A stretch of DNA of 64,000 nucleotides. Origin: Alphaproteobacteria bacterium (GTDB taxonomy: Bacteria > Pseudomonadota > Alphaproteobacteria > UBA9219 > RGZA01). Below are positions 16,615 through 27,214 of this stretch, one piece after another (positions within the stretch are counted from its first letter, which is position 1; the number at the start of each line of letters is the position of its first letter). A program made the translations under genes and the position numbers. The DNA is taken from positions 1-64,000 of the forward strand of contig JANRLI010000002.1 of the NCBI GenBank assembly GCA_033762625.1. The letters are read 5' to 3'. Under the pieces are notes generated by a model. The model ran no database searches, was not told the origin of the DNA, and saw nothing but the letters and a program-made list of their open reading frames with translations.

Positions 16615-17484
16615 TTATTTTGTATCGCGCGTACGATTTATCAAATAAGAAACAAACGAGGCGCAAGCACCAATCATAAAAATTGCGTCGGTTTCATCAA
16701 CCGCAGATGTAGCATCATCCAGCAAAGGATGGCGAATACCCTTTTCATCGGATGTAAAACCATACAGCGCCCCGAAGCCTTTTTCTAAAGCTGGGTGAAC
16801 CGCTTTTTTAGATTTGAGTTTCTGAAGCGCGCCACCTAATGAATTTGTGCCACCCAGTAAACGCGCCACCGATTCCACTGCATGTATGCTTTCCCGAATA
16901 CTATCAGCATAACCACCAGATGTAAGATTTTGTGCAGCTGTGCGTAAATGCGTGCGAGCGCCATCAAATTCTTGTGCTCTTAAATCTAGAAACGCTTGAT
17001 TTATAGCACCAACTTCTTCTTCAGAGCTAATTGGTATGAAAGTCGGTGGGTCCTCAATTAAGCGGTAGGCAGCATGAGTTCTTTTTAATATCAATTTTAC
17101 TTTTTCAATATCAATAGCTTCTTTGTTTTCTCTTAGCACCCATTGTAAAAATCCATACACCTCTACATAGTCGCCGCTATTTATAATTTTTTTGACCTTA
17201 GAAATTAAAACACTAGGGTCGCTTATAAATTCATCGACCATTTTATGATCCACAAATATATGTTTACGATGCAAAAGTTTTTCCCACTTTGCGCTTAAGT
17301 GAAAGTTATTATCAAAACGGGAAAAATATTTACCTTGTTGTAAGTCAGTGTGAATTAGCAGCCATAACATTGCTCGTAGCTCAGGAGATATTTCATCTCT
17401 TCTCAGCTGTCGTGGTAATTCATCCACGCCTTCAGCTTGTGCGAAGGTGAGCTCCTTACGTTTTGCATGAACATCTGTGGGCAT
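16615..17484 (-). CDS. HEPN/AbiJ-like (STM4504/CBY_0614 type) protein
   Basis: About 289 residues, visibly more AT-rich than the neighbours. The N-terminus (LTFAQAEGVDELPRQLRRDE) resembles the AbiJ N-terminal domain type 4. The C-terminal about 110 residues match the HEPN-like domain of the STM4504/CBY_0614 group: YADSIRESIHAVESVARLLG, ALYGFTSDEKGIRH and ACASFVSYLINRT. HEPN proteins are often RNases in abortive infection or toxin systems, so phage defence is plausible but unproven. No antitoxin partner is seen. Start: ATG at 17484, TTG at 17541 possible. Confidence 0.75.
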   Translation of the reverse strand: MPTDVHAKRKELTFAQAEGVDELPRQLRRDEISPELRAMLWLLIHTDLQQGKYFSRFDNNFHLSAKWEKLLHRKHIFVDHKMVDEFISDPSVLISKVKKIINSGDYVEVYGFLQWVLRENKEAIDIEKVKLILKRTHAAYRLIEDPPTFIPISSEEEVGAINQAFLDLRAQEFDGARTHLRTAAQNLTSGGYADSIRESIHAVESVARLLGGTNSLGGALQKLKSKKAVHPALEKGFGALYGFTSDEKGIRHPLLDDATSAVDETDAIFMIGACASFVSYLINRTRDTK

Positions 17485-17580
17485 TTGGATTTTCAATAAA
17501 GAGGTTTTATGTAATTTATTAGTGCGCCTTTTTCTGCACAAGATTTAAGAAAATAATTTTTTAAAACCAATTTTCAACTT

Positions 17581-19871: not shown

Positions 19872-20801
19872 TTGCAAAACCTTCAAAGTTTCATACGAGG
19901 CGGGCCGCAATTCATCCTGCTTGGCGATACCCACCACTCCAGTGAGCGGATCAGTGGGTTCTTTCACTCGCCCCAATTTATAGAAACACTCAAACAGGCC
20001 GGGGTCAAACATCTCTTTCTGGAAACGCCCAGAAATTATCAGGAAATGCTGGAGATGGATAAGCGTTTATTCGAAGGCATGACTACCCCCGCGCAGGTTG
20101 AACAAAAAGTAAATGAAGAAATCGCAAGAATGCGTCAATCAACAGGTGTACAAGGCCCTGAAACACCCACTGAAAAAGGCTACCGGGATATGCTTCGCCT
20201 GACCGGTCATGCCCATATCAACGGCATACAATTGCATTACTATGACCATGACAGCGATAAGGACCCGACGAAAACAGGAAGCGCCGCAGGCGGGGTACGT
20301 GATGATGCATACCGATGCTATACCGACCAATTTAAAGACAAAGATCTTCGCCCCCCTGATAATAGAACCATGACGGCTGAGGATTACCGCGACAGATTCA
20401 AAGAAACTGCGCGGCTGCGTGAGCGGGGTATGCATGATGACCAGCTGGCGGCACATATCACCGCCACCGCAGGTAATGATAAAAGCGTTGTTATTATCGG
20501 CGCGGCGCATCTCTCGCATCCAAATGGACTTGCAACGATCCTTGCAGCGCGCGCGGCAAGCCTGAACATTCATTCCAACCAGCAAACCCAGCAAGCCTAT
20601 TTCGCCAACAAAGCCAACCCTGCATACCGGAATTTTATAGGCCAAGATCATACGCGGATTGCGACTATCCCTACGTATCAGATTGACGCGGACAGAATTG
20701 CAAAACCCGAAGGGCAAGATGCGGCCAATGCCTTGCAAGCCAAAGGCCAATGGCAAGGCCCCGTCTGTCCGCCAAAGGCTTCGCCAGCGGCTGCGCAATA
20801 G
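19872..20801 (+). CDS. Hypothetical protein, possible TIKI/ChaN/EreA-like fold
   Basis: 309 residues. FILLGDTHHSSERI near residue 14 and VVIIGAAHLSHPNG near residue 205 resemble the paired metal or active-site motifs (GDxHH... and IGAxH) of the ChaN, TraB/TIKI and erythromycin-esterase-like group. Overall similarity is too weak for a function. No ATG fits; the TTG at 19872 is the best available start, since an in-frame ATG at 19860 runs into a stop. Proline- and alanine-rich C-terminus. First gene of the block that separates mnmG from rsmG. Confidence 0.65.
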   Translation: MQNLQSFIRGGPQFILLGDTHHSSERISGFFHSPQFIETLKQAGVKHLFLETPRNYQEMLEMDKRLFEGMTTPAQVEQKVNEEIARMRQSTGVQGPETPTEKGYRDMLRLTGHAHINGIQLHYYDHDSDKDPTKTGSAAGGVRDDAYRCYTDQFKDKDLRPPDNRTMTAEDYRDRFKETARLRERGMHDDQLAAHITATAGNDKSVVIIGAAHLSHPNGLATILAARAASLNIHSNQQTQQAYFANKANPAYRNFIGQDHTRIATIPTYQIDADRIAKPEGQDAANALQAKGQWQGPVCPPKASPAAAQ

Positions 20802-21765: not shown

Positions 21766-22680
21766 CTAAATATTGTGGCGATAAACGATATGACGATGCT
21801 TGACGCCATGCGCATGGAGCGTGCGATGCGCCTGCTCCATTTCCGTCAAGCGCTTCGGCTTCATTTCATGGCGGTGCAATTTATCGCTAATCACCACCGC
21901 AACGCCCACATCAATCACCGCCTGCGTGCAGGAATAGCACGGGTCAGCGGTGGTGATGAGGATGCTTTCATGGAATAATTTGCTGTTGGCCGCTTTGCGT
22001 GAAACGCGGTCAAGGAATCTGATGCGGCGCTGCGCCATCTTATGCGGCGAAATAAAATCCTTATTGCGCAATTCATCGCGGCCCGCATGCGCGCGTTTCT
22101 TGATGCTGGCTTTGCTGCGCAGAGTAAAATGTGTTGCCAGCTCAGCGTGGCCAACGGCTTTGGCGATTGCTGCGGGCTCGGCGCATATGTTGAATGCCGC
22201 GCGGCCTTTCGTGTAGGTCAAATGCTTGCGCTGCAATTTTTCCGAGGGCTGCATTTCCTTTAACCAGAAATTCGCCGCCGCATAGCTAATCATCTGATTA
22301 TCCGGATTGACATAAAGCGCGCCCGGGCCTTTGGCCGGATTATGCCGCAGGGTTTGCACCACATGCGCCAGCGCCATCCATGCCTGCACGATATCGTCAT
22401 CCTTGTCCCAGCCCTTACCGCCCAGTGCAGAAATTTTTCCAGCGATTGCGGTGAGCGTTGGATCCATCGCTTCGCGCACAACTTCCACTTCACCGATATA
22501 GGCCATCATGGTTGTGCCATACAGTGTTAGCGTTGCTTCATCGGGCTGCGGGTCTTCGGCCTTATCCGGCATTTTGATGTTTGGCACGGCCTCCGCATGC
22601 GGCGCCAGGCGGCGCGTGATCTCTTCCTTGGCATCGGCAAGCAGCGTTAGAATTTCATTGATTTGTTCTGTGCGGGTCAT
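21766..22680 (-). CDS. CDA-fold zinc deaminase-like protein
   Basis: 304 residues. C166-A167-E168 in ICAEPAAIAKAVGH and P247-C248...C251 in TTADPCYSCTQAVIDVG give the zinc-binding and catalytic pattern C-A-E plus PCxxC of cytidine-deaminase-like enzymes. The first motif resembles free-nucleoside cytidine deaminases. About 160 N-terminal residues are unlike the small deaminases and unrecognised; basic C-terminus. The substrate could be a nucleoside, nucleotide or the product of its neighbours. Its ATG overlaps the upstream gene's TGA (ATGA), so it is translationally coupled to the LOG-domain gene. Confidence 0.8.
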   Translation of the reverse strand: MTRTEQINEILTLLADAKEEITRRLAPHAEAVPNIKMPDKAEDPQPDEATLTLYGTTMMAYIGEVEVVREAMDPTLTAIAGKISALGGKGWDKDDDIVQAWMALAHVVQTLRHNPAKGPGALYVNPDNQMISYAAANFWLKEMQPSEKLQRKHLTYTKGRAAFNICAEPAAIAKAVGHAELATHFTLRSKASIKKRAHAGRDELRNKDFISPHKMAQRRIRFLDRVSRKAANSKLFHESILITTADPCYSCTQAVIDVGVAVVISDKLHRHEMKPKRLTEMEQAHRTLHAHGVKHRHIVYRHNI

Positions 22681-24860
22681 GTAGGCGCCCTCCCGCGTTT
22701 GGCAATGCGCCGCGCATCGGCCGGTGGCCGGACACCATGCGCTGCGCGATAATCAAGCACGCGGTCTTTCAATTCTAGGGTAAGCGCTTTAAGTTCATCA
22801 AGGGTGGTTGCCAGCACAACCCCTTTATCGATATGCGCTTTATGATCGTCCAGCATGGCATCCACAAAGGCGCTGCCATACACTTCGCGCATCAAATCCA
22901 TGTTGATGTTATCGCTGTAATCATCGCGGTGAATGCCGGGCGCATAAAAAATTTTGTATTTATTGATTGCGGTTTCGGGTTTGATGGCGCGCCATGCCGC
23001 GCCATTCAATTCTTCTTCAATCGTGCCATACCCGCCCCACGCTACAACTTCGATATCCGCCAAATGATAAAGTGAATTCCGGCGCTGCGTGATATCGGGG
23101 TACACTTCCCAGCGATGCATGCCCACGGGCACGCGGCCCTTGGATGTTTCATTGCGTAGCAAATCAAAAGTTGAAACGCAGGTAATGTGGTGGCCTTTTT
23201 TATCGCGGTAGCCTTTGGCGAATGCGCCCATGGCGTGCAAATCGCCGCCGCCATAGGCCGCTGCAAACTGGTTCTCCGCCAGAAATGCGCCATAGGCCTG
23301 ATTGGCATCCATGATGTATTTATTGTCGTTGCTGGCGGAGGTGTAAAAGCTGACCGTCACATCATCGGGATTAATCTCGGCGCCGCCAATGCGCGCTTGG
23401 GTGGGCTGAATTTCAGCCGACACAAAGGGTTCGTAATACGAAAAACGGAATTCAAGAATTTGATTGATGGCGGTGCGGATTTGCTGGGTGCTGAGCTGCT
23501 TGCCTGTATTCGATTTAATGACATCGACATAGCTGTCGGAAAAATGTGCGACATCCTTATCGGAAATCACCGTATCGATGCCGCGGAAGAGGGGACGATT
23601 GAGAAAGTTTTTGACAAAGCCGCTGCGGTACAACTTCGCGCAGAACGCAATCACATTCGTCATCGTGCCATCATCAACCACAATAATCGGGCAATGCCGC
23701 GAACGTGAACGCGTTTGCCTGTCCACCAGGGCTGCGAAGAAATGCAGCAGGCGCATGGTTTTTTGCTTCACCGACAGGCCTTTTAGCCCTTGGAAAATCA
23801 ACGCATCGGCGTTTTCGAGCAACGGCTCGATGGTCAGGGATGTATCATCGGTTTTATTGACACCGCTTGATAAAATCTTGAAGCGGCCAATACGTTCATC
23901 GGTTTTACCAAATGAATAAATCACCGGATCCTGCAAGGGTTCGATGCGGCGGATAAAGGTGTTTTGCGCCGAAGCCGTCCACACGATTCGCACATCGGCT
24001 TCGGGCGCTGCCGCGCCCAGAAATGCCGCGAGTTCGCGCACGATTTTGCTGCGCGGGCTGACATTTAACATCCAGTTCAGGTAATTCGCGCTTTGCGGCT
24101 GGTCGGGGCGCTCCACATCCGCAAGGTAATCTTCCACTTCATCCATCAGGATATCAGGGCGCTTGATTGCAACATCAAGACCCAGCGGCATATGCGCGCG
24201 GTAGGATGACTGACCTTCAAAGACGCGGCGCGGTTCCAAGGGGTCATCCTTCGCGCTATTCAAAATGAAGGTGATGATCGAAGTTATCTTGGGCGGAATT
24301 TTTTTGCCAAGCTGCTGGGCGGCGATGCGTAATTCATCCATCAAGGTTTCAAGCGTCACATTCGCAAGTACCGCAGCGGTTTCTGCTGCTGGCCCTGCCT
24401 GCGTGCCGTTATTGGCGATGCCATGCAACAACGCTTCCGGCACGAATGGCGCAAGGCTGTCATGCAAAATTTGCCATTCGGCAAGCTCGGCGGTGATGGT
24501 CGCATCCTCCACCGCCATGTGGTAAGTCACGTTCTTATCCTTGATGCCAAAGGCGGCGAGACGTTGACGCAGCACTTTGCGCAGCGCGGATTTTGGATCG
24601 TTTAGCGCAGCGACGACCTTTTCATGATCGACCATTTTCTGTTCGGCGTTTTCAACCCTATCGCCGGTATCTTCATCGGCGACCACAAACCCATCCATCA
24701 CATCAGTAAGGGCGATGAAATGCAGCGGTACATTCCAATAACGCGCAATCGCTTCATAGGTGACGGGTTTGAATGGCGTGGTGGTTTTGACAATGATGAC
24801 GTGTTTGATAGGCACGGGTTCGTGCGCACGCTCAGCCAAGGCAGCGTTGGAGCTTTTCAT
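22677..24860 (-). CDS. LOG-family phosphoribohydrolase-like protein with large N-terminal extension
   Basis: About 727 residues, roughly four times a normal LOG protein. The C-terminal region from about residue 505 is a LOG/TIGR00730 Rossmann domain: AAAYGGGDLHAMGAFAKGY, DITQRRNSLYHLADIEVV and WGGYGTIEEEL, matching the family's RKxxM and PGGxGTxxE motifs with Pro replaced by Trp. LOG enzymes cleave nucleoside monophosphates to base and ribose 5-phosphate. The first 150 residues (IVKTTTPFKPVTYEAIA, DTGDRVENAEQKM) resemble HAM1/RdgB-type NTP pyrophosphatases, but weakly. The middle is unrecognised. ATG at 24860 chosen; TTG at 24875 possible. Confidence 0.78.
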   Translation of the reverse strand: MKSSNAALAERAHEPVPIKHVIIVKTTTPFKPVTYEAIARYWNVPLHFIALTDVMDGFVVADEDTGDRVENAEQKMVDHEKVVAALNDPKSALRKVLRQRLAAFGIKDKNVTYHMAVEDATITAELAEWQILHDSLAPFVPEALLHGIANNGTQAGPAAETAAVLANVTLETLMDELRIAAQQLGKKIPPKITSIITFILNSAKDDPLEPRRVFEGQSSYRAHMPLGLDVAIKRPDILMDEVEDYLADVERPDQPQSANYLNWMLNVSPRSKIVRELAAFLGAAAPEADVRIVWTASAQNTFIRRIEPLQDPVIYSFGKTDERIGRFKILSSGVNKTDDTSLTIEPLLENADALIFQGLKGLSVKQKTMRLLHFFAALVDRQTRSRSRHCPIIVVDDGTMTNVIAFCAKLYRSGFVKNFLNRPLFRGIDTVISDKDVAHFSDSYVDVIKSNTGKQLSTQQIRTAINQILEFRFSYYEPFVSAEIQPTQARIGGAEINPDDVTVSFYTSASNDNKYIMDANQAYGAFLAENQFAAAYGGGDLHAMGAFAKGYRDKKGHHITCVSTFDLLRNETSKGRVPVGMHRWEVYPDITQRRNSLYHLADIEVVAWGGYGTIEEELNGAAWRAIKPETAINKYKIFYAPGIHRDDYSDNINMDLMREVYGSAFVDAMLDDHKAHIDKGVVLATTLDELKALTLELKDRVLDYRAAHGVRPPADARRIAKRGRAPT

Positions 24861-24976
24861 AATACGTTCAGGCAATTAGTTAGTGTTAGCAAGCACATAT
24901 CTATCATTCCAATATGGGAACGAAAAGCAAAAAATCTCCGCGTCGCGCATCTTTTCCATAGGGGTTTTATTAACCT

Positions 24977-27034
24977 CTACGGATTTCGTGTAACCCTTGG
25001 CTGCGCTGCGCGGTGTTCCGGCGATATCCGGTTTTCAATCGCTACAAAGGTTTCGGCAACCGCCAAAAACTGCGATGCTTTTGAAATATCAAACACGTCG
25101 TTTTCGCTGCGCAAATTGGTTTCCGCATCAACCCATGTGGTGTGGCCGGGCGCAATTTTTTGAATACGTTTTATTTCTTCGGCTAAATTATGCGGACCCA
25201 AGCCACCGGCATACCCCGTAAAGCGTCCTTCCACCGGCGGAAGATATTCACGCGCAACCTTGCCAGCACCAGCCGAGACATCGTGGAATACCGATACATT
25301 TTCAACATCCGTGAACAAGGCCAGTAATGCCTTCTGGTCTTGCCCGTACTGAATAACAAATTCGGTGTTGGGATATTTTTTTATCTGTTCAACCAAATCG
25401 CTTGGGTTGATGTGATCACCCGCATGTTCAAAGCGCAGATTAAGTTGCACACGCTTGAATTGGGTTGCCAGTTTGACGGTATCGGCATCGCCCGCTGCAA
25501 AATCAGCCAGCGCCGAACCACATAAATGAATGGCCGCATGCTGGCCCTTATAATCTTTGACAAAGCGGTTGATCCATTCGCGCGTTGGATAGCGGGATTC
25601 CCCTGCATGTTCGGGATACCATAAAATGCCCACTTCCATGAACGGGAAACGCTTGGCAAGTTTGCTGAGATCGCGGATGCGCACAGCATCATCGACGCCC
25701 GATATCGCGCAATATTTGAGCTTGATGTCATCATCATTGGGTTTCAATGTCGGCACACCGGCGTATAAATCGCTTAAGGTCACACCGGGCACAAAACCTG
25801 CTTCCTTGGCGGCCTGAACGTAGTTATAAGCGCCGGCATAGTAATTATCATCGGTGACTTTGCCGACCATTTCCTGCCAGGCTCTGGGCGGCACGCGGTC
25901 AGGCGGCAAGGATACGCGCACGCCAACGGTGGTGTCTTTGCCAGCGATATTGGCAAACTTCGCGCCGTTCATGGAATAGAGGAAATGGATGTGCTTCAAA
26001 CCAAAAAGCTGCGCGGTTTCGCCCAGAATTTTATGCAAGCGCACATCTTCGCCGCCCACATAATCATGCGTGTGCTGGAAATAAAATTCGGCCGTGTCCG
26101 GCAATTGCTGGGACTCACGCGACGCATAAACGCCTTTTTTAACAACGGCGCCAAGCGCGCGGCCTTCAAAGCGGCGCTGCGCCAAAATGAACACGCCGCC
26201 CGCACGCGCCAAACGCACGCCTTCTTCTTTTGCAAAATCCATATAGGCCTTGCAGGTGCAGCGTGACGAGTCATGGATATCGGAATTGTCGCATGCATCA
26301 TGGATGCGCAGACCAATCACGGTTTCCGGATTGGACAAGCGGCGGATATCACCGATCACCTGAAAATTGATGCCTTCATAGGTTGGCAAATAAACTTCCA
26401 AATCCCGGCGGTTGATGAAATCAGGATTATTGGTGCCTTTGAATAATGCTTCGCGCAGCGTGTCTTCGCTCATCTCGAACAACTTGGCAACGCTGGGCAA
26501 ATGCCATACGGCATTCGTTGAAACCTGCGTGGTTTGCACATAGACATCGCCGTTCTGGTCTTGGCGCACGACAACACCGTCGGGCTGCATGGTTCCGGCT
26601 TTTACTTCGCGTTCGATGCCTTCAATATGGGCTTCATCCGGCGTTGCGGAAATCATTGGTTTGATTTGCGCGCCGTCATTCATCAGATCGCCAAAGTATT
26701 CATGCGGGCGGAAACCGAATGGATCAAGCGTCGCAAGCTTGGTTGGATCAAAGGTGCCAGCGCCTTCCTTGGCGGCCTGCGCAGCTTCACTTAACGGGCG
26801 CGGTAATGGCACAAAGGTGGAGCGCAATAGGGCAGGCGTTGGATCATGCAAATCGGTAATCTCGCCTTTGGCGCGCGCAATCTCGTAAAAAATACCGTAA
26901 GGGCCCGGGAAATTTCCAATCACATTGCGCGCATAGCCATTGCCATCGCGGATAATCAGCGGGCCGCGTTCCTGCGCGGTTGATGCACCCCAATGAATTG
27001 GAACATGCTTGAGCTCGGTTGCTGGGGTCGTCAT
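24977..27034 (-). CDS. URC1-type GTP cyclohydrolase II fused to PRAI-like barrel
   Basis: 685 residues in two parts. Residues 1-430 match the URC1-type GTP-cyclohydrolase-II branch: an N-terminal domain, then zinc ligands C248 (HDACDNSDIHD), C259 and C261 (SRCTCKAY), and the FEGRALGAVVK loop equivalent to QEGRGIGL of RibA. Residues about 438-665 resemble phosphoribosylanthranilate isomerase: LKYCAISGVDDAV, ESRYPTREWINRFV, FTGYAGGLGPHNLAEEI and TWVDAETNLRS. URC1 is implicated in opening the ring of a uracil nucleotide; PRAI catalyses an Amadori rearrangement. First gene of a three-gene operon with the LOG and deaminase genes. Exact reaction unknown. Confidence 0.82.
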   Translation of the reverse strand: MTTPATELKHVPIHWGASTAQERGPLIIRDGNGYARNVIGNFPGPYGIFYEIARAKGEITDLHDPTPALLRSTFVPLPRPLSEAAQAAKEGAGTFDPTKLATLDPFGFRPHEYFGDLMNDGAQIKPMISATPDEAHIEGIEREVKAGTMQPDGVVVRQDQNGDVYVQTTQVSTNAVWHLPSVAKLFEMSEDTLREALFKGTNNPDFINRRDLEVYLPTYEGINFQVIGDIRRLSNPETVIGLRIHDACDNSDIHDSSRCTCKAYMDFAKEEGVRLARAGGVFILAQRRFEGRALGAVVKKGVYASRESQQLPDTAEFYFQHTHDYVGGEDVRLHKILGETAQLFGLKHIHFLYSMNGAKFANIAGKDTTVGVRVSLPPDRVPPRAWQEMVGKVTDDNYYAGAYNYVQAAKEAGFVPGVTLSDLYAGVPTLKPNDDDIKLKYCAISGVDDAVRIRDLSKLAKRFPFMEVGILWYPEHAGESRYPTREWINRFVKDYKGQHAAIHLCGSALADFAAGDADTVKLATQFKRVQLNLRFEHAGDHINPSDLVEQIKKYPNTEFVIQYGQDQKALLALFTDVENVSVFHDVSAGAGKVAREYLPPVEGRFTGYAGGLGPHNLAEEIKRIQKIAPGHTTWVDAETNLRSENDVFDISKASQFLAVAETFVAIENRISPEHRAAQPRVTRNP

Positions 27035-27214
27035 AAAGAAGGCCTCGCGCTGGAAAATAAATAAAAAATCTGCCCCCTCTTAGCATTCCGGCGAAGAAAC
27101 AAAAAGAAAAAATCTCGTTGATTTTCTTAATTTTTTAGCGCCCAGTTACTTCATTGGTAACGCTTAACCAATTCCCCTAAATCGGTTTTAACAGTTTTAA
27201 ATTAACGTCACGAA

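Follow-up and report, generated by a model that had tools for sequence, protein, structure and literature searches.

Fusion of a URC1-family cyclohydrolase with a PRAI-like barrel, alongside LOG- and deaminase-fold partners, in an alphaproteobacterium: a candidate nucleotide-remodelling module

From the letters of a 64,000-nucleotide stretch of alphaproteobacterial DNA (contig JANRLI010000002.1 of assembly GCA_033762625.1; hereafter the window), a sequence-only reading singled out three neighbouring genes and proposed that they dismantle or remodel a nucleotide. What would such enzymes do together, and does their combination correspond to a known pathway? The genome concerned comprises 2.23 Mb in 26 contigs and is estimated to be 100% complete. 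The genes, named P3, P2 and P1 in their order of reading, and the features discussed below are as follows.

27078-27116, minus strand: promoter-like element upstream of P3, TTTTTnCTTTTnGTTtC...GGAATGmTAgA, kept in the sister species
24977-27034, minus strand: P3, fusion of a divergent URC1-family cyclohydrolase and a PRAI-like TIM barrel, 685 aa
26438-27019, minus strand: GTP_CH_N domain (PF12471), P3 residues 6-199, Pfam E 1e-32
25922-26353, minus strand: GCHII catalytic domain, P3 residues 228-371, GTP_cyclohydro2 E 4.7e-4 (weak)
24989-25744, minus strand: PRAI-like TIM barrel, P3 residues 431-682, by AlphaFold, Foldseek and profile match
24899-24938, minus strand: matching promoter-like element upstream of P2, inside the P3-P2 gap, kept in the sister species
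22677-24875, minus strand: P2, with Ham1-like, degenerate Rossmann-like and LOG parts, 732 aa from TTG
24501-24800, minus strand: probable Ham1/RdgB-like N-terminal domain, P2 residues ~26-125, by profile-profile comparison (moderate)
22980-23357, minus strand: LOG domain, P2 residues 507-632, LOG TIGR00730 E 5.8e-9
21766-22680, minus strand: P1, CDA-fold deaminase, 304 aa

The layout described earlier, three same-strand genes with a 117-bp gap and then an ATGA overlap, was confirmed: the overlap joins P2 and P1 at 22677-22680, and the gap between P3 and P2 holds when P2 starts at the ATG at 24860, which is the likely translation start and gives a protein of 727 aa. The promoter-like element, about 35 bp long, stands in front of P3 as well as P2 in the two sister species, and this common element suggests that the two genes may be co-regulated. 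Further copies at a similar level were not seen elsewhere in the window. No riboswitch or tRNA was found, and no mobile-element repeats were convincing. The four fold assignments made from the letters (URC1-branch cyclohydrolase, PRAI-like barrel, LOG domain and CDA-fold deaminase) all hold in domain or structure searches, and the zinc and catalytic residues, the loss of which had been named as grounds for refutation, are kept in P3, P2 and P1.

The first half of P3 has the GTP_CH_N and GCHII architecture of the URC1 family and matches PRK07198 (E 1.1e-79, 268 bits, below the equivalog cut-off of 403). The solved structures nearest to P3 by sequence are 7ej3/7eev (E 6e-64), which we believe represent the UTP cyclohydrolase described by Zhang et al. 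2021 and cited in PMC12507026. In a tree, P3 groups with URC1 and apart from RibA (split support 99/97), on a long branch whose placement within the URC1 side is unsettled. The zinc cysteines C248, C259 and C261 are kept, as are the EGR motif at 290-292 and the residues D330, R332 and K359. P3 retains 93 of the 186 positions that are invariant among 12 canonical URC1 proteins and has lost the other 93, so its substrate may be other than UTP/UMP. Since TrpF and RibBA are encoded separately in the genome, the parts of P3 are not housekeeping copies: P3 as a riboflavin-pathway RibA was rejected because RibBA is found on a different contig and P3 falls with URC1 in the tree, and the barrel as the PRAI of the tryptophan pathway because TrpF is encoded elsewhere in the genome.

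Comparison with the URC pathway of Lachancea and bacteria shows where the set departs from known chemistry. In that pathway, URC4 acts on ribosylurea, which like 3-hydroxypropionate arises through URC1 and URC6 (PMC7530994). P3 shares with it the URC1 family, the GTP_CH_N and GCHII domains and the intact zinc cysteines, but half of the URC1 invariants are lost, a PRAI-like barrel is fused to the enzyme, LOG and CDA partners accompany it, and URC4 is missing. The lack of URC4, previously noted for the neighbourhood, extends further: URC4 (DUF1688) is absent from the whole genomes of the window's species, its sister species and a distant member of the order, and a canonical URC operon was rejected for this reason. 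URC4 adjoins canonical URC1 in all 12 genomes tested, and the P3 search returned no PRAI-like match among about 26 sampled canonical-URC1 genomes of the phylum, whereas a PRAI-like partner accompanies each of the three URC1-like genes that lack URC4. Because there is no URC4, the step after ring opening in this set must differ or be absent, and the PRAI-like half of P3 most obviously suggests itself for it.

The barrel is modelled by AlphaFold with pLDDT >90 across most of residues 431-682. In Foldseek, the highest TM-scores by target length belong to TrpF structures (0.69-0.74, with 1dl3 at 0.74 on top), but E-values are slightly better for aldolase-like barrels. The barrel itself does not match the Pfam PRAI model, one member of its family passes that model's cut-off (27.3 vs 22.7 bits), and the profile match to TrpF spans the last two strands. 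The catalytic pair of TrpF is Cys7 and Asp126. In P3 these positions are taken by C442, in strand 1, and by D585, where strand 6 ends; R481, H503, D636 and E638 were also noted. The TIM barrel, the order of motifs, this Cys and Asp and an AGGLxPxN phosphate loop thus align P3 with TrpF (PF00697), from which it differs by very low identity, by extra invariant His, Asp and Glu residues and by the absence of a trp context. Across the PRAI-like family, in window numbering, H503, D585 and D636 do not vary and E638 hardly does. The catalytic Cys is replaced by V, I, M or L in 80 of 85 members; the five that hold it, as the window's barrel also does, are the sister species (L018), the distant genome of the order (L031), one plasmid and two viruses. 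Because the TrpF Cys is present there, the cyclohydrolase-linked barrels are the family members that look like true Amadori isomerases.

Most proteins with the PRAI-like fold belong to phages. A single motif retrieved 148 loci in viral contigs, of which 80 were kept; matches occur in phages, plasmids and prophages, the majority being free-standing hypothetical proteins some 240 aa long, and the members tested are captured poorly by Pfam and PHROGs. No strongly conserved phage neighbourhood was found, the commonest neighbour cluster occurring in 7 of 65 independent loci. A PRAI-like gene lies near MazG in a mega-phage, and a 0.9-Mb genome (G100) carries three PRAI-like genes close by, two of them in tandem (L062, 7598-10681, plus strand). 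Two plasmid barrels are fused to a C-terminal region that was not identified (L072, 6037-7350; L074, 5890-7629), the former adjoining cytosine methyltransferases and DUF5131. In another genome (G469; L185, 4828-9013, minus strand), a nucleoside hydrolase, a PfkB kinase, a PRAI-like protein and a Xan/ur permease are encoded in a row, with a GntR-UTRA regulator nearby; this context is a single instance, with no second among 300 genomes of the same order. An origin of the whole set from a phage or plasmid was rejected: neither phages nor plasmids yielded relatives of P2 or P1, and none of the plasmid matches covers 80% of P3.

P2 ends in a LOG domain in which R598 and the GGYGTxxE motif (E621) are invariant among 8 relatives, and a PGGxGTxxE motif has been described as predicted catalytic (PMC6717881). 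The domain, the conserved Arg and GGxGTxxE are those of the LOG/PpnN nucleotide 5'-monophosphate nucleosidases; P2 differs from these in its length of 732 aa, its N-terminus and its degenerate middle, and no PAG (DUF4478/DUF3412) domains were found in it. Its N-terminus, overlooked in the earlier reading, is probably Ham1/RdgB-like, judging from profile comparison (hhalign P 2e-5, Prob 77, over 58 columns) and from K36, N76, K80 and E123/D124, which follow the order of the Ham1 motifs SNxxK, NAxxK and DDSG, with E123-D124 in place of DD. The middle of P2, by eye, resembles a further Rossmann/LOG-like unit that has degenerated; AlphaFold gave no usable model of the protein (pLDDT 30). Outside the two sister species, relatives of P2 stand alone, and in three genomes (L021, L022 and L023) they adjoin a Tag-like gene, named by eye as a 3-methyladenine DNA glycosylase.

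P1 carries the zinc motifs of dCMP/cytidine deaminases (PF00383, phrog_174), as C166-A-E168 and P247-C248-x-x-C251 (PCYSC). Unlike them, it has some 100 extra residues at its N-terminus and a long insertion separating the two motifs, and its Pfam and dCMP-deaminase matches are weak, that to dCMP_cyt_deam_1 (E 9.8e-5) falling below the Pfam cut-off.

These partners bear on a reading in which the set sanitises damaged or non-canonical nucleotides, by Ham1-like hydrolysis, deamination and LOG cleavage, while the barrel of P3 recycles the sugar. The stand-alone P2 relatives of the order, three of them next to the Tag-like gene, would fit such a role, and so would the proximity of MazG to the mega-phage gene, but the Ham1 assignment is moderate, the P2 model is useless, the Tag adjacency is perhaps mere synteny around a gene named by eye, and the ring-opening enzyme is left without explanation. 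Sanitation is considered improbable.

If the genes form a functional set, they should recur together. The sister species (G002; loci L018/L032) has all three at the corresponding locus and in unchanged order, with 77-90% identity. Values of omega of 0.10-0.20 against that species indicate purifying selection on P1-P3, and dS values of 0.65-0.83 are like those of mnmG, parA and rsmG; the shared locus, low omega and core-gene-like dS imply that both lineages have retained the set at least since they diverged. In G032, a distant member of the order (contig C167, locus L031), genes for a RibA-like GCHII of 397 aa, a PRAI-like protein of 243 aa and a URC1-like protein of 386 aa run head to tail with overlaps of 1-4 bp, and a CDA deaminase gene converges on them from 43 bp away. 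PRAI-like and URC1-like parts are separate, adjoining genes there and fused in the two sister species. The deaminase is modestly similar to P1 (24% identical, E 3e-7). The idea that a 90-aa gene beside it corresponds to a detached P1 N-terminus found no support (E 0.65). The bin of this genome has 9% contamination; C167 is not obviously a contaminant, because its sucB is of the type usual in the order, with 72% identity to the G013 gene. The relative of P2 lies on another contig (L025), unlinked to the L031 set.

The expectation that the gene set would be found in other genomes was thus borne out for the URC1-like, PRAI-like and deaminase genes, which recur in G032, while P2 adjoins P3/P1 only in the two sister species. 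The set is also rare, which the earlier reading had missed: URC1-like genes of its type occur in 3 of 33 genomes of the order, with a PRAI-like partner in all three.

Altogether, P1-P3 are known enzyme families in a new combination, which we read, at a probability of roughly 0.45, as a nucleotide-remodelling module following a URC-like route with a different second step. We infer its order of steps, substrate, product and physiological role as follows. P1 would deaminate a cytosine-type or amino-pyrimidine nucleotide, and the Ham1-like part of P2 would perhaps trim a triphosphate to the monophosphate. The URC1-like half of P3 would open the nucleotide ring hydrolytically to leave an N-(5-phosphoribosyl) fragment, which the PRAI-like half would isomerise from aldose to ketose in an Amadori-type reaction that replaces processing by URC4. 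The LOG domain of P2 would split the N-glycosidic bond of a nucleotide monophosphate, and LOG and deaminase may handle the monophosphate either before or after ring opening and isomerisation. A pyrimidine nucleotide is most likely the substrate of P3, favoured over a purine because the enzyme is URC1-type; a purine or modified base is possible, since P3 has lost URC1 residues and a RibA-like enzyme accompanies the set in G032.

The module is favoured by the fusion in two species together with the separate but adjoining PRAI-like gene in G032, by the invariant LOG Arg and Glu, and by the PRAI-like gene of G469 within its nucleoside hydrolase, PfkB and permease row. Counting against it are the unlinked P2 of G032, the modest similarity of P1 to the L031 deaminase and the chemistry itself, since an N-ribosylurea suits an Amadori reaction poorly by comparison with aryl- or imidazolyl-amines; moreover, the second, RibA-like GCHII of L031 would suit a purine substrate.

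The same chemistry could instead make a small heterocycle or a modified nucleoside, as a biosynthetic branch of riboflavin or pterin type that uses GCHII-type opening, an Amadori step and CDA-fold deamination. Ring opening with a CDA-fold deaminase parallels RibA and RibD, and ring opening with an Amadori step parallels GTP cyclohydrolase I. The parallels are logical ones, to which the RibA-like GCHII of the G032 cluster adds, and the TrpF-type residues would suit an arylamine ribotide. However, the cyclohydrolase is URC1-type rather than RibA-type, an isomerase replaces the reductase of the riboflavin branch, and the host has a separate RibBA; the LOG and Ham1-like domains are degradative, and the set includes no ligase, methyltransferase, oxidoreductase or transporter. 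Such a branch appears quite unlikely.

The location of the genes raises a further alternative. In 5 genomes from two other families of the order, mnmG directly adjoins rsmG, whereas in the window's genus the two are 7.5-7.9 kb apart, P1-P3 being part of a 7.5-kb insertion. A further genome of the genus, G001, was examined as a possible empty site, and rsmG was not found in it. The remainder of the insert is not alike in the two sister species. In the window it consists of two unrelated genes: one between mnmG and the set (19872-20801, plus strand), with a weak match to TraB/PrgY/GumN-like proteins (E 1.8e-4), and one of 254 aa downstream of P1 (20889-21653, minus strand), which has no Pfam, NCBIfam or above-noise PADLOC match and no counterpart seen at the sister-species locus. 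In the sister species it holds an HxlR-type regulator and an oxidoreductase, both named by eye, and, immediately after P1, a DUF4268 protein that matches the PADLOC candidate PDC-S11 (L032, 11033-11995, minus strand; E 1e-122). Just outside mnmG in that species, NADAR and PRTase-CE genes are adjacent (L032, 5927-7533, minus strand). Immediately before mnmG in the window stands an AbiJ_NTD4 protein, PADLOC candidate PDC-S32 (16615-17541, minus strand; E 4e-58). The mnmG-rsmG region is a variable spot with conflict-type genes.

It is mainly because of these neighbours, which the earlier reading had not remarked on, that we retain a reading of the set as a defence or conflict module, whose enzymes would destroy or alter the nucleotide pool, or a modified phage nucleotide, on infection, with the mnmG-rsmG gap as a defence hot spot. 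The insertion, the PDC-S11, NADAR and PRTase-CE genes of the sister locus, the window's PDC-S32 gene and the mostly phage-borne PRAI-like family are consistent with it. On the other hand, P1, P2 and P3 match no PADLOC model, which speaks against a known anti-phage system, the PDC models have no more than candidate status, the set lacks a sensor, toxin or nuclease, and both species keep it at core-gene dS and low omega, unlike fast-turnover defence genes. A defence role is accordingly regarded as unlikely, if worth retaining.

The original proposal of nucleotide dismantling or remodelling therefore stands as regards the folds and the kept catalytic residues; the pathway itself is plausible but unproven, and the defence-type neighbours would allow a non-catabolic role. 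Under the remodelling reading, it is conceivable, if doubtful, that the set represents an undescribed pathway: the cyclohydrolase would open the ring of a nucleotide, and the PRAI-type isomerase on the same chain would carry out the Amadori step, giving a deoxyribulose-type metabolite. The phage PRAI-like proteins would then be a second new enzyme family acting on N-phosphoribosyl compounds. The analysis exposes these proteins as a large, unnamed phage-borne family. URC1 chemistry is among the least understood of pyrimidine ring openings, and a URC1 relative fused to an isomerase in a genome without URC4 provides a testable handle on the fate of the phosphoribosyl product.
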